The notes below the pieces were generated by a model. The model saw nothing but the letters and a program-made list of their open reading frames with translations. It was not told the DNA's origin and searched no databases. Positions 12,106-52,305 of a stretch of 64,000 bases of DNA are shown one piece after another. The first letter of the stretch is position 1, and every line of letters begins with the position of its first letter. The position numbers were made by a program, and so were the translations under genes. The DNA is from Zhaonella formicivorans (lineage in GTDB: Bacteria > Bacillota > DUOV01 > Zhaonellaceae): the NCBI RefSeq assembly GCF_004353525.1, contig NZ_CP085524.1:1894142-1958141 (forward strand). Direction: 5' to 3'.

Positions 12106-13659
12106 TTACATTGCTACATCGGCAGATTGTGGTTTACCGCTGGCTTTTCCCTGGGAAGTCAACCCTATTTCTCCCTTGAAAGCTTTTACTAAGGAAATCA
12201 TCATAAAGACCATCACTATCATAAAAGGAAAAGCCGATACAATCGAGGCAGTCTGCAGCGCGCTCAACCCCCCGGCGAGCAGCAAGACCGCAGCCACTGC
12301 TCCCTCGGTCACACCCCAGAAGATTTTCAAGCCCGCTTTAGGCTCCAGGTCGCCCCCGGAAGTGAGCATGCCCATCACAAAGGTAGCCGAGTCGGCGGAA
12401 GTAATAAAGAATGTGCCTATTAACACACAGGCAAGAGTAGATACCAGTGCTGTCAGAGGCAGGTTTTGAAACATGGCAAACAGGGCCGTAGATACATTCT
12501 CAGAAACCGCTTTGGCAATCCCGGCATCACCGGAAAGTTCCATGGATACTGCAGTACCTCCGAAAATTGACAGCCAGATAAAGCTCAGTAAAGTAGGAGC
12601 GATCAACACGCCCAGAATAAATTCCCGCACAGTCCGCCCCTTGGAGATCCTGGCGATAAACCCACCTACAAAGGGACCCCAGGCAATCCACCAGGCCCAG
12701 TAAAAGATGGTCCAGCCGCCTACCCATCCGGGGTTGGTTCCGTACGGATCCGTCCAAAAGCTCATCTGCACAATATTTTGGAGGTAAGTGCCGATGGTAT
12801 CAGTAAACACATTGAGAATAAATTTGGTAGGTCCTAAAAACAGCACAAACAGCATGATTAAAAAGGCAAGGTACATGTTGACATTGCTCAGCCATTTAAT
12901 CCCCCTGCTGATGCCGGTAACGGCAGAAGTAATAAAAAGCACAGTAATTACGGCAATAAGCACAACTGTCACACTTGTAGAATTGGGAAGCTTGTAGACA
13001 TAGTTTAAACCGCTGTTGATCTGCATAGCCCCCAGGCCCAGGGAGGTGGCGACTCCGAAAAGGGTCGCAAAGACTGAGAGAATATCCACAGCTTTACCAA
13101 TTGGGCCCTTAATTCCTTCTTCGCCTAACAGCGGGTACAAAGTAGAACTGATTAATGCGGGCAACCCTTTTCTAAACTGGAAGTAGGCAATAGCCAGTCC
13201 TGCCACGGCAAAAACCGCCCAGGGGTGGAGCCCCCAATGCAGAAAGACATAGCGCATGGCTGTTGCTGCTGAGGCCAAAGTGGAACCTTCCCCAAAGGGC
13301 GGACTGGCATAGTGGTACATTGGTTCCGCCACGCTCCAAAACACCAGGCCGATGCCCATGCCGGCACTGAACAGCATGGCAAACCATGTCCAGGTGCTGT
13401 ACTCCGGCGCTTCGTCATCTTTTCCAAGTTTAATATCGCCAAATTTACTAAAAGCCAGCGCAACGCAAAATACCAGGAAAATAGTGACCACCAGCATGTA
13501 GGACCAGCCAAAATAATCCGTAAAGAACTTTAAGGCTGCTCCGAAAGATTTACCTGCTTGTTCCGGAGTAAGAGCCCCCCAGAGTACGAAGACGATGGAA
13601 ATAACCGCGGAAATGCCGAAAATCTTCTTGTCAATTTTGCCGAAAAAGCTGTTCTCCAT
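12106..13659 (-). CDS. BCCT-family betaine/carnitine/choline transporter
   Basis: The 517-residue protein has about 12 hydrophobic segments and the BCCT signature: SAGMGIGLVFWSVAEP near 97-112 and the tryptophan-rich WAWWIAWGPFVGGFIARIS near 320-340. BCCT carriers import quaternary amines such as glycine betaine, carnitine or choline. Its location between PocR and MttB-family genes indicates catabolic uptake of a methylated amine for the corrinoid pathway rather than osmoprotection only. The ATG is preceded by AGGGAGGGCACTT. It has a short C-terminal tail without the long osmosensory extension of BetP. Confidence 0.93.
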   Translation of the reverse strand: MENSFFGKIDKKIFGISAVISIVFVLWGALTPEQAGKSFGAALKFFTDYFGWSYMLVVTIFLVFCVALAFSKFGDIKLGKDDEAPEYSTWTWFAMLFSAGMGIGLVFWSVAEPMYHYASPPFGEGSTLASAATAMRYVFLHWGLHPWAVFAVAGLAIAYFQFRKGLPALISSTLYPLLGEEGIKGPIGKAVDILSVFATLFGVATSLGLGAMQINSGLNYVYKLPNSTSVTVVLIAVITVLFITSAVTGISRGIKWLSNVNMYLAFLIMLFVLFLGPTKFILNVFTDTIGTYLQNIVQMSFWTDPYGTNPGWVGGWTIFYWAWWIAWGPFVGGFIARISKGRTVREFILGVLIAPTLLSFIWLSIFGGTAVSMELSGDAGIAKAVSENVSTALFAMFQNLPLTALVSTLACVLIGTFFITSADSATFVMGMLTSGGDLEPKAGLKIFWGVTEGAVAAVLLLAGGLSALQTASIVSAFPFMIVMVFMMISLVKAFKGEIGLTSQGKASGKPQSADVAM

Positions 13660-13934
13660 AAGTGCCCTCCCTTTGGTTTTTTGAATTTTTCATTATTTTA
13701 AAAATTTATAAAAGTTCCGCCAACAACCAACCGAAGGCATAAATCGAGTTTTATAAAGACAGTAACGCACACGTAAAAGCAGGAGCTGTAAACTGGAATG
13801 ACATCCAGATCATATCACAGCTTGAACCGAAAGGCTAGATTGAAGGTGTTGGTTGATCACGGAACGTATTGTAAGCATACAATCAATTTTGTATTTGAGG
13901 CTGCCTGCCGGAGGCAGGCAGCCATAGAAGTAAC
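13660..13934. other. Intergenic region with GC hairpin and small palindrome
   Basis: The gap between the MttB-family gene and the transporter gene holds a perfect GGCTGCCTGCC/GGCAGGCAGCC hairpin at 13899-13923 just after the mttB stop, and an ATTGTA-AGCA-TACAAT palindrome around 13869-13884 that could be an operator or a small hairpin. It probably separates two transcription units. Confidence 0.5.
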
Positions 13935-15401
13935 TTATACCGCCTTGTTCAGTTTGTTTTCCGCCCGTTCCACAACTGCCCTAATCTTCTTCTGAACGTC
14001 TTTGGGCAGGGGCTCGGGCTCGTAGTTTAGAATAATATCTTTAACTTTTTCGTTGGCTACTTCAGTTAAAGTCTTACTGCCCGCAGCCTGCCACAGTTCA
14101 TAGCGCTGGCGGTTGATTATGCTGGGGAACCAGGATTCGGTCTTGAAGTGCTTGAATGTATGATCTTCAGCCAGGAAGTGTCCGCCGGGCCCCACCTTAT
14201 CGATCAAGTCCACAGCCAAGGTATCTTCATCCACTCTGATGCCGCGCACCAGCCTCCTGGCCATGCCGATAATATCGTTGGCGATAGTTAAGAGCTCCAG
14301 GCTTGCTGTGGAACCATATTCCACATAACCCACGTCATGGTTCAGGTTTGGCCCGGACATGGCTGTCATGGCAATGGATATAGCTGCTTCAATAGCGGCT
14401 TGCTCGTCAGGAATGCAGGAATCGGTGCAGCCTGCGGTGCCGAACATGGGCAGCTTCAGGTAGTGGGCCATATCGGCCAGAGCCGACATCAGCAGGTTGA
14501 ATTCGGGAGAACCATAGGAGAAAATGGTAGTTCCCATATCCATAATGGTAAAGACGCCGCCCATGATAAAGGGAGCCCCTTCGCGGGTGTTCTGGTGCAA
14601 CACCAGTCCGCTCAAACTTTCCGCCAGACCGTTAACTAATACTCCAGCCATAGTAGCAGGAACGGTGCCTCCGGCCATAACGCAAGGTGTATAGACTACC
14701 GGCAGGGCTTTCTTAGCAGCCAAAATCAATTTGGAAGCTGCTTCCCAGGCATGCTGCAGCGGTGAAATAGGTTCGGCATAAAGGGTCATAAATGGATTCT
14801 TGCGCAGTTCTTCCTCGCCGCCGGCAATGATTTCACACATTTCAATGATGTCTGCAAAGCCGTAGATGTCATGGGCAGTTGTGACAATAGGTTTGCCGGT
14901 GTTTAAGACCTGCACTTCAAATTGGTGCCTGTCGGAGATTAAGAGGGGCACATCCTGTACGATACCCAGTGACATTACAAAGTCCAGGTTGGGCAGCGCA
15001 TCGATGACTTTGCAGGCCCAGCCCACCGATTCTTTAGTTGAGCGCTTTCTTTCACCGGTAAAGGGGTCATAGAAAAACGGAGTATCGGAGCCTGTGCCAA
15101 AGTAGGCATTATGTCCTTCTAACAGCACATCCCGGGAACCGGTGCGGCTGTTGCAGAGTGTCACCCGGTGCGGTACTGTTCTCAAGGCCCGGTCCACCAG
15201 GTAGGACGGAATTCTGACACGAATACCGTCTACGTAGCAGCCGGCTTTCTTTAAAATTTCCAACGCCTCGTCATCGTGGAAAGTAACACCGGTACGCTCC
15301 AGCACTTCTTCTGCAGCCAAAAATATTTCTTCGCACTGGCTGGGGGAAAGAATGCTTAACATGGTGCTGGCGTTTGCTTTATAATTACTTCTGGTTCTCA
15401 C
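13935..15401 (-). CDS. MttB-family (non-pyrrolysine) methylamine/betaine methyltransferase
   Basis: This 488-residue protein is a full-length MttB superfamily enzyme (TIM barrel) read without any in-frame TAG, so it lacks the pyrrolysine of archaeal trimethylamine methyltransferase. Family features include GTGSDTPFFYDPFTGER near 100, the GTAGCTDS segment near 320 and DKVGPGGHFLAEDHT near 420. Non-Pyl members such as MtgB demethylate glycine betaine; others use proline betaine, carnitine or butyrobetaine. The start is GTG behind AAGGAGAG. It forms one unit with a corrinoid gene (15431) and a second mttB-like gene (16093), next to a BCCT transporter. The exact substrate cannot be read from sequence. 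Confidence 0.9.
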   Translation of the reverse strand: MRTRSNYKANASTMLSILSPSQCEEIFLAAEEVLERTGVTFHDDEALEILKKAGCYVDGIRVRIPSYLVDRALRTVPHRVTLCNSRTGSRDVLLEGHNAYFGTGSDTPFFYDPFTGERKRSTKESVGWACKVIDALPNLDFVMSLGIVQDVPLLISDRHQFEVQVLNTGKPIVTTAHDIYGFADIIEMCEIIAGGEEELRKNPFMTLYAEPISPLQHAWEAASKLILAAKKALPVVYTPCVMAGGTVPATMAGVLVNGLAESLSGLVLHQNTREGAPFIMGGVFTIMDMGTTIFSYGSPEFNLLMSALADMAHYLKLPMFGTAGCTDSCIPDEQAAIEAAISIAMTAMSGPNLNHDVGYVEYGSTASLELLTIANDIIGMARRLVRGIRVDEDTLAVDLIDKVGPGGHFLAEDHTFKHFKTESWFPSIINRQRYELWQAAGSKTLTEVANEKVKDIILNYEPEPLPKDVQKKIRAVVERAENKLNKAV

Positions 15402-15430
15402 TAAAATCTCTCCTTTCTTGGCCTACAGGC

Positions 15431-16063
15431 CTAGCTTACCAGCTGCTTGCAGAGTTCAGTTGCAGAAGCCGCGTCGGGAGCAAATCCGTCAGCGCCGATT
15501 TCGTCGGCAAAATCTTTGGAAATGGGTGCCCCCCCTACGATTACTTTTACCTTATCCCTTAAACCTTCTTCTTTTAATACCTCGATGGTATCCTTCATGG
15601 AAAGCATTGTGGTAGTTAAAAGCGCTGACATGGCCACTATGTCCGGATTGTATTCCTTCACTGCCTGGACAAACTTGTCGGGAGCAATATCCACCCCCAA
15701 GTTGACTACTGTGAATCCGGCGCTCTCCATCATCATGGCCACCAGATTTTTGCCAATGTCATGCAGGTCCCCTTTTACTGTTCCAATTACCACCTTGCCT
15801 ACGGAAGGCATATCTGTATCGGCAATTAAAGGTTTTACTATTTCCAAACCGGCGCTCATAGCCCTGGCCGACATCAGTACTTCCGGCACAAACATTTCCC
15901 CGTTTTTAAAGCGGGCACCCACTACGCTCATTCCGGCAATTAATCCCTGATTGATAATTTCCAGGGGGTCGCTGCCTCCATCTACAAAACTCTTGGTCAA
16001 TTCCCGGACTTTTGCTTCATTACCGCTGATTACTCCTTTGGACAGTTCATCGTAGTTAGCCAT
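15431..16063 (-). CDS. Methyltransferase cognate corrinoid protein
   Basis: A 210-residue corrinoid protein with GDLHDIGKN, MSALLTTTMLS and IVGGAPI, strongly similar to the one at 9138-9767. It is sandwiched between two MttB-family genes with gaps of about 30 bases and is presumably their shared methyl carrier. Its ATG follows GGGGGAG. The close pair suggests a recent duplication that supplies one copy to the methyltransferases and one to the MeTr/activator half of the locus. Confidence 0.93.
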   Translation of the reverse strand: MANYDELSKGVISGNEAKVRELTKSFVDGGSDPLEIINQGLIAGMSVVGARFKNGEMFVPEVLMSARAMSAGLEIVKPLIADTDMPSVGKVVIGTVKGDLHDIGKNLVAMMMESAGFTVVNLGVDIAPDKFVQAVKEYNPDIVAMSALLTTTMLSMKDTIEVLKEEGLRDKVKVIVGGAPISKDFADEIGADGFAPDAASATELCKQLVS

Positions 16064-16092
16064 TATAATCTCCCCCTCAAAATCTTATTCCT

Positions 16093-17577
16093 CTATTTCC
16101 TTTTTCGGGCTGCTTCCCTGGATTCGGCCCTTTCCACAATTGCTTTAATCTCCGCTAATGTTTTTTCCGGCAAAGGCTCAGGCCGGTGGTTATTGATAAT
16201 ATTCTGAGTCTTTTCCTTAACACGCTGCGCCATGGTCTTGCCGCCATTTGCTTTCCATTCATCGTAACGGAACCTGTTCATCAGAGTAGGCCACCAGAAT
16301 TCACTTCTAAAATGCTTCATTGTGTGTTCATCGCCTAAATGATGTCCTCCAGGTCCAACCCGATCGATCACGTCAACAGCCATTGTTTCATCGTTGACAG
16401 GAATGCCTTTCAGAATTCTCTTCACCATTCCGATGATCTCGTCATCCATCACCATTAATTCCAAGGAACTGGTTGCGCCATATTCCATATAGCTGCAGTC
16501 GTGGATGATATTGGCACCGCTTAGTCCGGAAATCAAAATGGAGAAAGCTGCTTCCAAGCCCATTTGTGCGTCAATGACTTTGGAATCTGTGCAGCCGGCT
16601 GTGCTGAAACTGGGAATCCCCATCCAGCGGCAGACATTGGCCAGGCCTGCCGAGAGCAAGCTCAGTTCCGGAGCCCCGTAAGCCAGAATGCTGCTGGACA
16701 TATCCATGGTGGAAATTAAACCGCCCATGATGAACGGAGAGCCTTCCCTGATCAGTTGACCGGCTACCAAGCCTACCAGGCAATCAGCCACCGAAATCAG
16801 GATGGATCCTGCCATGGTAGCGGGTGCTACGCCACCGGCAAAAGTACAAGGAGTATAAATGCATGGGATGTTATTCTTCGCGGCAAAAATTGCTTTATCA
16901 ATTGCTTCATCTGAATGGCGGAGCGGAGGGCTGGATTCAGAGTAGAGAATAATGAAAGGATTCTTTTGTAATTCGCTTAAACCGCCTCTCACTGCTGCTG
17001 CCATATCCAGGATATCCTGGTACTGGTCTACACCAAACCCCCAGTGAATTATTGGCTTTGTGGTATTGGTCAACATTGCTTCAAAAGCATGAACGTCGGC
17101 CAAAGTCGGCGTTACATCCATAGGTGTTCCATGGTCCATGGCATAATCGATATTGGGCAATGCATCAGCTACCAAAGCGGCCCGTGCATTATCTGACTTT
17201 TTCGGCCTTCTTCTCTCGCCGGTGAAAGGATCCAGCACGAAGTTGTTAGTCGGACCTGGGCCGTAATAAATATTATCTCCTTCTAAAAACATGCAGCGCT
17301 TGCCGTTACGGTCACTGATTACGATGCGGGAAGGAGCGGTCCTGACGGCCCACTCCACTAACCGGGAGGGGAATCTGACCCTGTTTCCGTCTACCCAGCA
17401 GCCGCCTTTGGCAAATATCTCCAGAGCCTCTTTGCTGTACACATCGGCACCGGTTCTTTCCAAGGCCTCCAGTGCACCTAAATAAATCTCTTCACACTGG
17501 TCATCGCTCAATACTTTGAACTGCGGAGTCTGGTTAACTTCATAATTCGCCCGCACATACAAACTCTTATTGGTCAC
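16093..17577 (-). CDS. MttB-family (non-pyrrolysine) methyltransferase
   Basis: A second MttB superfamily enzyme of about 494 residues, clearly divergent from the one at 13935 but colinear: GPGPTNNFVLDPFTGER, STAGCTDSK, and DRVGPGGHHLGDEHT. No amber codon interrupts it. The frame reaches 17598, but an ATG at 17583 lies only two bases from AAAGGAGAG; the GTG at 17577 has the better spacing. It is the promoter-proximal gene of the methyl-transfer locus. Two different MttB enzymes sharing one corrinoid gene suggest successive demethylations or two alternative substrates. Confidence 0.9.
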   Translation of the reverse strand: MTNKSLYVRANYEVNQTPQFKVLSDDQCEEIYLGALEALERTGADVYSKEALEIFAKGGCWVDGNRVRFPSRLVEWAVRTAPSRIVISDRNGKRCMFLEGDNIYYGPGPTNNFVLDPFTGERRRPKKSDNARAALVADALPNIDYAMDHGTPMDVTPTLADVHAFEAMLTNTTKPIIHWGFGVDQYQDILDMAAAVRGGLSELQKNPFIILYSESSPPLRHSDEAIDKAIFAAKNNIPCIYTPCTFAGGVAPATMAGSILISVADCLVGLVAGQLIREGSPFIMGGLISTMDMSSSILAYGAPELSLLSAGLANVCRWMGIPSFSTAGCTDSKVIDAQMGLEAAFSILISGLSGANIIHDCSYMEYGATSSLELMVMDDEIIGMVKRILKGIPVNDETMAVDVIDRVGPGGHHLGDEHTMKHFRSEFWWPTLMNRFRYDEWKANGGKTMAQRVKEKTQNIINNHRPEPLPEKTLAEIKAIVERAESREAARKRK

Positions 17578-17750
17578 TGTCATCTCTCCTTTCTTCACTT
17601 ACAAGCCTCAGCTTACAAGCTGCTTCACCATAGCCAGCCATCCAATCCCTCCTATAATGCTGTTTTGTTCCCTTTCTGCAGGTTATTCTTCCCCTCCCCT
17701 CAGCCGCAAGCCCATATTTAAAACATTTCTTAAATTAGAAAAATTTTGTT

Positions 17751-24004: not shown

Positions 24005-24289
24005 TTAAAAACTAATGCCTTCTACTACCAGGCGCCGGTAGATTCCATCGCCTTTTAAATCTATTGTTACCCCGTCGGGGTCATAAGAGGTAAACTTAGG
24101 GGTGTAGACCTGCAAATCTCCGAGATCATGCTGATCATAGTTTTCGGGATCGGTCGGCTTACCTGCAAACACGGCAGGTACAAAATAAATGCCCGCTCAG
24201 CCCCCGTGTCTCTCTAAATTTACAAAAATGCTGTCGGTTTTACCCGTGATATATTCTTTGGCGGTATCGCTGACGTTAACTTTAACCAT
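24005..24289 (-). CDS. Selenoprotein with in-frame UGA (HesB-like/CC-Se motif type)
   Basis: Ordinary ORF calling misses this gene because codon 31 is TGA (24197-24199). Reading it as selenocysteine gives a 94-residue protein: MVKVNVSDTAKEYITGK at the start, FVNLERHGG-U-AGIYFVPAVFAGKP around the Sec, and YTPKFTSYDPDGVTIDL near 62-78, ending YRRLVVEGISF. Coding character continues on both sides of the TGA in one frame. The ATG has GAGGTG upstream, a terminator follows, and a hairpin suited to be a bacterial SECIS lies 17-37 bases after the TGA. The length and the Gly-rich redox position resemble the small HesB-like selenoproteins of Clostridia. Sec use fits an organism with a glycine reductase locus. 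The function is unknown, perhaps redox or metal binding. Confidence 0.85.
24160..24180 (-). promoter_or_regulatory. Bacterial SECIS-like hairpin
   Basis: Just downstream of the in-frame TGA, TACCTGC and GCAGGTA form a perfect seven-base stem with the seven-base loop CGTGTTT. The loop carries a GU and lies about 24-30 bases after the UGA, within the spacing known for bacterial SECIS elements read by SelB. Confidence 0.7.
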
Positions 24290-24439
24290 AATTTTCACCT
24301 CTTCAGTCCGATTTGTTTATATTATACTCTTTGTATTTTTCGCTGTAAATATATTTAATGATACTTTTATTTTTCTTGAAAGCATATTTCCCTGTATTTA
24401 ATTGCAAAATAGGAAAAGAAATCTGGAAAAGGTGAAAGC

Positions 24440-35664: not shown

Positions 35665-35800
35665 CAACACCTCTCTTTCAACGCCGACGAGGTTAGCTGA
35701 CGGGTTCGGGCCGAAAGAGCTGCCCTACCTTTAGGATTCACCCCAAAAGATTGGTTTCCCCGTTTCCCTGCAGGGAATTAGGCGTTTGGCTGAAATGACA
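35665..35800 (-). promoter_or_regulatory. Cyclic di-AMP riboswitch (ydaO/yuaA type)
   Basis: On the minus strand the conserved core runs ACGGGGAAACC, TTGGGGTGAATCC, then GGGCAGCTCTTTCGGCCCG, then AACCCGTCAGCTAACCTCGT, closing with GGCGTTGAAAGAGAGG. This matches the ydaO leader consensus in order and spacing. It precedes the CAP-domain wall protein gene, a typical target. These riboswitches usually turn genes off when c-di-AMP is high. Confidence 0.9.
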
Positions 35801-43056: not shown

Positions 43057-43169
43057 TCTTCTTATCTCCCAAGGAATCCTCCTTGCTGGAATTAGCACCT
43101 TGTTGAGCAATTGACTCAACCGGTTGCCGGGTTTCATAGGGCCAGTCCCTCCGCCTGCTCTCGATAAGA
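43057..43169 (-). promoter_or_regulatory. SAM-I riboswitch (S-box)
   Basis: Minus strand CTTATCGAGAG, GGCGGAGGGACTGGCCC, TATGAAACCCGGCAACC, GTGCTAATTCC and AGATAAG are the conserved S-box blocks in order, with closing stem CTTATC/GATAAG. It controls metY. Confidence 0.96.
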
Positions 43170-43475
43170 ACAAAGGTTTTCAAGTTGTTGTGCTTATTAT
43201 AGAATTCCGGTCTGTTTTTGTCAATTATTTTTTTTACCGCACCACCAGTCTAAGGAGACTTTTCTTTTGCCCATTGAGACACCCCCTCCGCGCGGGTAAG
43301 CTAGAAAATTTCCGCTAGTTAATAATATTTATTTTGCTGCCTGTTTGTGAAAGAATAGAGATGTCTAAGGTTATTGAATTTATGGATTATAACGCCGGGA
43401 TTTCTGCAAAATAGAGGATAGATTGTCAGAATGGCAAATATAGATAATATTGGTCAAAATACAGGAGGTGAGATC

Positions 43476-48120: not shown

Positions 48121-48174
48121 AACCGAAAAAAAATGTTAAGACTCACTCCCCATCTACCGTGGGTTCAACTGCGA

Positions 48175-48445
48175 GCTCAGAACAAGCAGGTTTCCTGGCT
48201 CAAGGTCATTGCCTTACTATGCCTTCCCATTCGGCACTTAACCCAATACTGACATTTTGGTTAAACTGCATACTGCCATACGAAGCAATTTACTTTCATA
48301 ACCCTTAAGTTAATACAAGGTTAATTGCCGAACAGTGGCTCAATATAGCAAGGCTACCTTTCACAGTGGCGGGACCGCGCCAGATTCCCACTGGCTTCCC
48401 TCTCGGCTTTGCATTTTCAGCAAAGCACTTGCTCCAAAGCTATTC
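48175..48445 (-). promoter_or_regulatory. Cobalamin riboswitch
   Basis: Minus strand shows GCCAGTGGGAATCTGGCGCGG, shortened here to the B12-box-like AGCCAGTGGGAATCTGGC, then GGTCCCGCCACTGTGA, and further 3' GGGAAGGCATAGTAAGGC and GAGCCAGGAAACCTGC, the standard order of cobalamin riboswitch elements. It precedes cobK-cbiMNQO, so cobalamin should shut off cobalt uptake. Confidence 0.92.
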
Positions 48446-48656
48446 TGTTTTCCCTAATTATACCAAAGACATAAGGTTTTAGCAATACCTTATAAAACTT
48501 TATTCAGTCACCAGTCGCCAGCAGCTAATGCCGTCAAAAGTACAGTCTTCGTAAAACAGTACGCCGGTACTGAATAAGTTTCGACCTCCTAACCTAAACT
48601 AACAGGGAATTAAAATATAAGGAGGTGTACTCTGGTTAATTTGGCCCAGAGGCTAC

Positions 48657-52069: not shown

Positions 52070-52101
52070 TAAAAAAATGCTGCACTGGATAATGCAGCAT
52101 T
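52070..52101 (-). terminator. Expression-platform terminator of TPP riboswitch
   Basis: AATGCTGCA and TGCAGCATT pair around eight bases and TTTTTTTATTT follows on the minus strand, between the TPP aptamer and thiT. Confidence 0.88.
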
Positions 52102-52111
52102 GTAAGTAGCT

Positions 52112-52208
<97 letters not shown>

Positions 52209-52305
52209 TATGCAGTTCTAGACATATTTTACCATAAAGCTTTGTATTCTTCAATTATATTTTTATCTTTGTCGTGTTTATCTTTGTTATCAATAATCTT
52301 AATTC

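Follow-up and report, generated by a model that had tools for sequence, protein, structure and literature searches.

A UGA-recoded, cysteine-free member of the NF041239 selenoprotein family in Zhaonella formicivorans, with a covarying SECIS-like hairpin and a predicted IscA/HesB fold

Does a reading frame that continues through a TGA codon encode a single selenoprotein, and if so, what might its lone Sec residue do? The question is raised by positions 24005-24289 of a 64-kb window, the whole stretch of Zhaonella formicivorans DNA analyzed here, for which an original prediction made from the letters alone had proposed an overlooked selenoprotein gene without naming its strand. The gene is encoded on the minus strand; a plus-strand reading of the same positions was rejected, as it has other stops and contains nothing coding. 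The features of the locus are as follows.

24289-24005, minus strand: predicted selenoprotein gene of family NF041239, 94 codons plus TAA, a frame running through a single in-frame TGA
24199-24197, minus strand: the in-frame TGA, codon 31, predicted to be read as Sec; in homologues the aligned column holds TGA or Cys
24296-24303, minus strand: ribosome binding site AAGAGGTG, from the sequence, ending 6 nt before the ATG
24349-24321, minus strand: promoter-like, sigma-70-like site TTTACA-17-TATAAT, 11 of 12 matches in a consensus scan only
24180-24160 (loop 24167-24173), minus strand: predicted bacterial SECIS hairpin, 7-bp stem and 7-nt loop CGUGUUU, from folding and comparative evidence
24002-23965, minus strand: terminator-like hairpin, perfect 16 bp, 3' of the stop codon, RNA fold -29.8 kcal/mol

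The good ribosome binding site and the terminator that had been proposed were thus both found, as was the perfect 7-bp stem with a GU-containing loop 17-37 bases after the TGA. The terminator-like hairpin has a short T-run and is missing from the list produced by a simple T-run scan. Gene calling had been expected to split or miss the gene, and for this locus the table 11 ORF list indeed has nothing but a GTG-started fragment of 55 aa downstream of the TGA (24172-24005). A divergent YitT gene flanks the locus on one side, and a sigma-70-family factor, a zf-HC2 protein and an ABC transporter follow past the terminator. None of the relatives examined showed this arrangement. The gene is predicted to be monocistronic and to encode a 94-residue selenoprotein of NF041239. 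Elsewhere on the minus strand, the window carries riboswitches for glycine (372-472), c-di-AMP (35666-35794), SAM (43059-43170), cobalamin (48168-48447) and TPP (52101-52214). Also on the minus strand, a methylamine- or betaine-type methyl-transfer cluster occupies 12106-17598; it comprises two MttB-family methyltransferases, a corrinoid-protein-like gene and a BCCT transporter.

The translation has protein-like sequence on both sides of the TGA, as originally described. Its single NCBIfam match, NF041239 ("CC/Se motif family (seleno)protein"), scores 87.3 bits against a cut-off of 40 and covers residues 2-91 (model positions 1-90 of 91), spanning the TGA; Pfam gave zero matches. A 2026 review includes NF041239 in its Table 1, where the protein is called hypothetical and is predicted for Moorella thermoacetica, and enters it separately from the HesB-like family TIGR01911 (PMC13188914). 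The selenoprotein reading stands, but with the family already catalogued in NCBIfam and in that review, a description of the gene as overlooked or new is not supported in general. Sampling of 398 genomes in the phylum found NF041239 in 89, with exactly one in-frame TGA in most copies and none in a minority; all three genomes examined of the class have it, each with a TGA, and it was absent from all 14 control genomes. A scan of genome contigs with the window's single sequence returned zero relatives, the peptide patterns of one divergent sequence probably being too strict, and a search of plasmids gave none.

Homologues carry Sec or Cys at position 31, with conservation on both sides, in agreement with the check that the original prediction had proposed. 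Among 61 aligned members the best-conserved positions are A10 and C/U31 and, beyond the TGA, the four positions P38, G43, P45 and L87. At the site of U in the Sec forms, most of the forms without Sec carry CC. On a phylogenetic tree, which is poorly resolved and has few columns, 9 changes of the Sec label are required, and well supported branches force at least 3 of these; Sec and Cys have therefore interchanged more than once. The tree leaves the nearest kin of the window member unplaced. One locus (L060, G382:C13:22000-38000) holds two more family copies with an in-frame TAA or TAG, which are probably decayed; the same genome also has single-TGA copies. Additionally, two family paralogues (L069 and L072), in genomes of the family labeled f14, have TAGG at the CC/U site, neither Sec nor Cys.

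The hairpin after the TGA has stem arms UACCUGC and GCAGGUA around a loop that begins CGUG, placing a G within the first two loop bases as expected of a bacterial SECIS. Its folding energy is unremarkable against shuffles (z -0.39, single sequence). That the single-sequence fold is no better than shuffles is what speaks for an alternative in which the TGA is a genuine stop and the locus consists of two fragments or a decayed pseudogene. As a yardstick for this hairpin, folding energy was set aside as uninformative; the significance of the hairpin comes instead from comparison. The comparison set comprised 38 Sec homologues of equal spacing, in which the 45 bases from the TGA align gap-free. 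The core pairs CCUGC/GCAGG form 5 of 5 in all 38, three of them vary on both sides (pair 25-35 is GC, AU or GU in 22, 10 and 6 sequences), and RNAalifold recovers the same five. With the two outer pairs included, 87.6% of cells pair, versus 25-41% in slid controls. Within the stem, Pro38 is encoded by CCT in 36 homologues and CCC in 2, both CCC sequences being matched by a synonymous change of the opposite Val codon from GTA to GTG, and all 38 have GTG for Val40 in the loop, whereas Pro45, outside the stem, uses CCG (13), CCA (10), CCT (8) and CCC (7). This codon pattern therefore confirms a constraint on the RNA. Moreover, Thr for Ala at residue 39 goes with Val for Ala at residue 42, a change demanded by the stem. 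All five core pairs are present in 37 of 46 Sec forms versus 2 of 25 Cys or other forms, one of these 2 coming from a broken locus. Because shuffles are blind to relatedness among homologues, the stronger evidence is that of the slid controls and the codon contrast. The SECIS check that had been suggested thus returned a hairpin conserved with compensatory changes, and comparative sequence evidence identifies it as a putative SECIS.

Absence of selA, selB and selC from the genome had been named as grounds for abandoning the idea; all three are present, in one cluster in which selC encodes a tRNA-Sec with anticodon TCA, and selD is present as well. The selD gene itself has an in-frame TGA (AAGUAAKVGPG), and each of two formate dehydrogenase genes (fdhA) has one. 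A ribosome proceeding past UGA codon 31 would meet the hairpin starting 17 nt downstream, SelB with Sec-tRNA(UCA) would bind the CGUG-containing loop, and Sec would be inserted instead of termination. Comparative evidence from the RNA and the genome together make such SelB/SECIS decoding at codon 31 a strong inference. A true stop is hard to square with the same TGA in dozens of homologues and Cys in others, protein conservation downstream, the covarying SECIS and the full sel gene set; at the comparative level these observations already refute it, and we give it next to no credence.

The original prediction had likened the protein to HesB-like selenoproteins, and the likeness stood for the fold and the position of Sec and failed for family membership. 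An AlphaFold2 model built from the 61-row alignment has a pLDDT of 93.7. In a Foldseek search of the PDB its top 8 matches all belong to the IscA/SufA family at probability 1.00, with TM-scores (query) of 0.51-0.64 and E-values from 0.0016, both moderate. A profile search of PDB sequences returned chance matches only, so that the fold search was needed. By hhalign, the family profile aligns colinearly, Sec on Sec, with HesB-like selenoproteins of the same phylum (probability 97%, E 4e-11). Profile comparison with IscA proteins (92.5%) places Sec31 on the cysteine of the GGC motif, the first cluster Cys of IscA. Among the 61 members there are weak sequence matches to PF01521 (8) and SufA (TIGR01997; 9). 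The model and the profile comparisons together show a predicted IscA/HesB fold for the window protein, with Sec31 modeled at the tip of a beta-hairpin, at the site of IscA's first cluster ligand. The protein shares fold, Sec site and colinear profile with the HesB-like family TIGR01911, but lacks its UxGP motif and its Cys-bearing C-terminal tail and does not match its model up to E = 1; none of the proteins in the genome matches that model either. With the A-type carriers IscA, SufA and ErpA (PF01521) it shares the predicted fold and a GG[C/U]xG hairpin, but not the CGCG ligands. DsrR of Allochromatium vinosum (PDB 2k4z) is a weak fold match (rank 19, probability 0.69); its E-value of 0.5 is not significant, and DsrR has no Sec. 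We regard the identity of the gene as an NF041239 selenoprotein, with UGA recoding and an IscA/HesB fold and leaving function aside, as close to certain.

The fold and the location of Sec at the first IscA ligand position could also indicate an A-type iron-sulphur carrier with Sec as one cluster ligand; also in favor of this reading, the organism's own genome has zero PF01521 matches. The C-terminal CGCG ligands are, however, missing throughout the members examined, and the window protein does not match PF01521, so that a carrier role seems improbable.

The residues around Sec bear on the remaining possibilities. The window protein matches NF041239 at full length and above the curated cut-off, with Sec at the motif and equal length, yet where the review gives a CxxU motif (PMC13188914) it has HxxU (RHGGU), and its 94-residue translation contains zero Cys. 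CxxU does not define the family, because it occurs in just 16 of the 49 Sec members examined; UC is found in 14, UxxC in 7 and CxU or CU in a few. No other Cys is present in 5 of the 49, including the window's member and its family relative in G001. With zero Cys, an intrachain selenenyl-sulphide would therefore not be possible. The oxidized Sec would instead be resolved by an outside thiol, either thioredoxin or a low-molecular-weight thiol, or alternatively by the partner subunit of a dimer.

Neighbors of the family elsewhere suggest a thioredoxin-linked or a metalloid-binding role, which we rank first and second, respectively. A thioredoxin-type gene is the adjoining same-strand neighbor in three families (f14, f42 and f48): at five loci in f14, with gaps of -8 to 42, as a thioredoxin-like gene in f42, and as a thioredoxin-thioredoxin reductase fusion in f48. 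The linkage thus rests mostly on one family, f14, and the window gene stands alone between the YitT and sigma-factor genes, with no thioredoxin neighbor in the 64-kb window. A role of the selenolate as a redox nucleophile linked to thioredoxin is plausible, if somewhat short of an even chance.

Alternatively, Sec may serve as a soft ligand that holds arsenic, mercury or a similar metal or metalloid, making the protein a binder or chaperone and not a redox protein. One CC-form gene (L067) lies inside an ars operon, arsC - family gene - acr3 - arsR, as does one UC-form gene (L077; arsR - family gene - arsC - acr3), and most Cys relatives have a vicinal CC. Clear cases of this kind number just two among about 58 loci, and both are far removed from the window member, whose single Sec without Cys would presumably make a poor site for trivalent arsenic. 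For the window protein we consider metalloid binding possible and rather unlikely.

Returning to the redox role, a picture of the whole family can be offered tentatively: NF041239 may have branched off within the IscA/HesB fold, abandoned cluster binding and turned into a selenol protein linked to thioredoxin. The second chalcogen partner would shift around Sec (CxxU, UC, UxxC or CU; in one group of paralogues, UU). In the window member, which would work with one Sec and no Cys, that partner would be missing altogether.

The paralogue group with UU was encountered in 10 of the 398 genomes, in which NF041239 paralogues have two consecutive in-frame TGA codons (e.g., RGUUNAFYAPSG; loci L143-L150, L152 and L153, with the focal gene near base 1500; L151 is similar). 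No match to this group was found in the window's genome. Ten aligned sequences share a single SECIS-like 7-bp hairpin, 100% paired and with compensatory changes, and when read with Cys, 4 of 5 tested score above the NF041239 cut-off. An AFOR (aldehyde ferredoxin oxidoreductase)-like gene lies upstream at 6 of 9 loci examined, all 3 of those scanned matching Pfam AFOR_C, and an iron-only hydrogenase-like gene lies downstream at several. The paralogue is possibly a natural vicinal diselenide protein. We found no description of a tandem Sec pair in bacteria in the literature searched, a weak negative, and the group deserves separate study.

NF041239, only hypothetical in the 2026 review, thus gains a predicted fold, an active-site position and testable partners in thioredoxin and the ars operons. 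Its SECIS covaries, and the RNA stem can be seen to govern which codons are used and which residues change together (Ala-Ala to Thr-Val). The Cys-free member would be a simple subject for probing the capabilities of a single Sec placed on an IscA scaffold.
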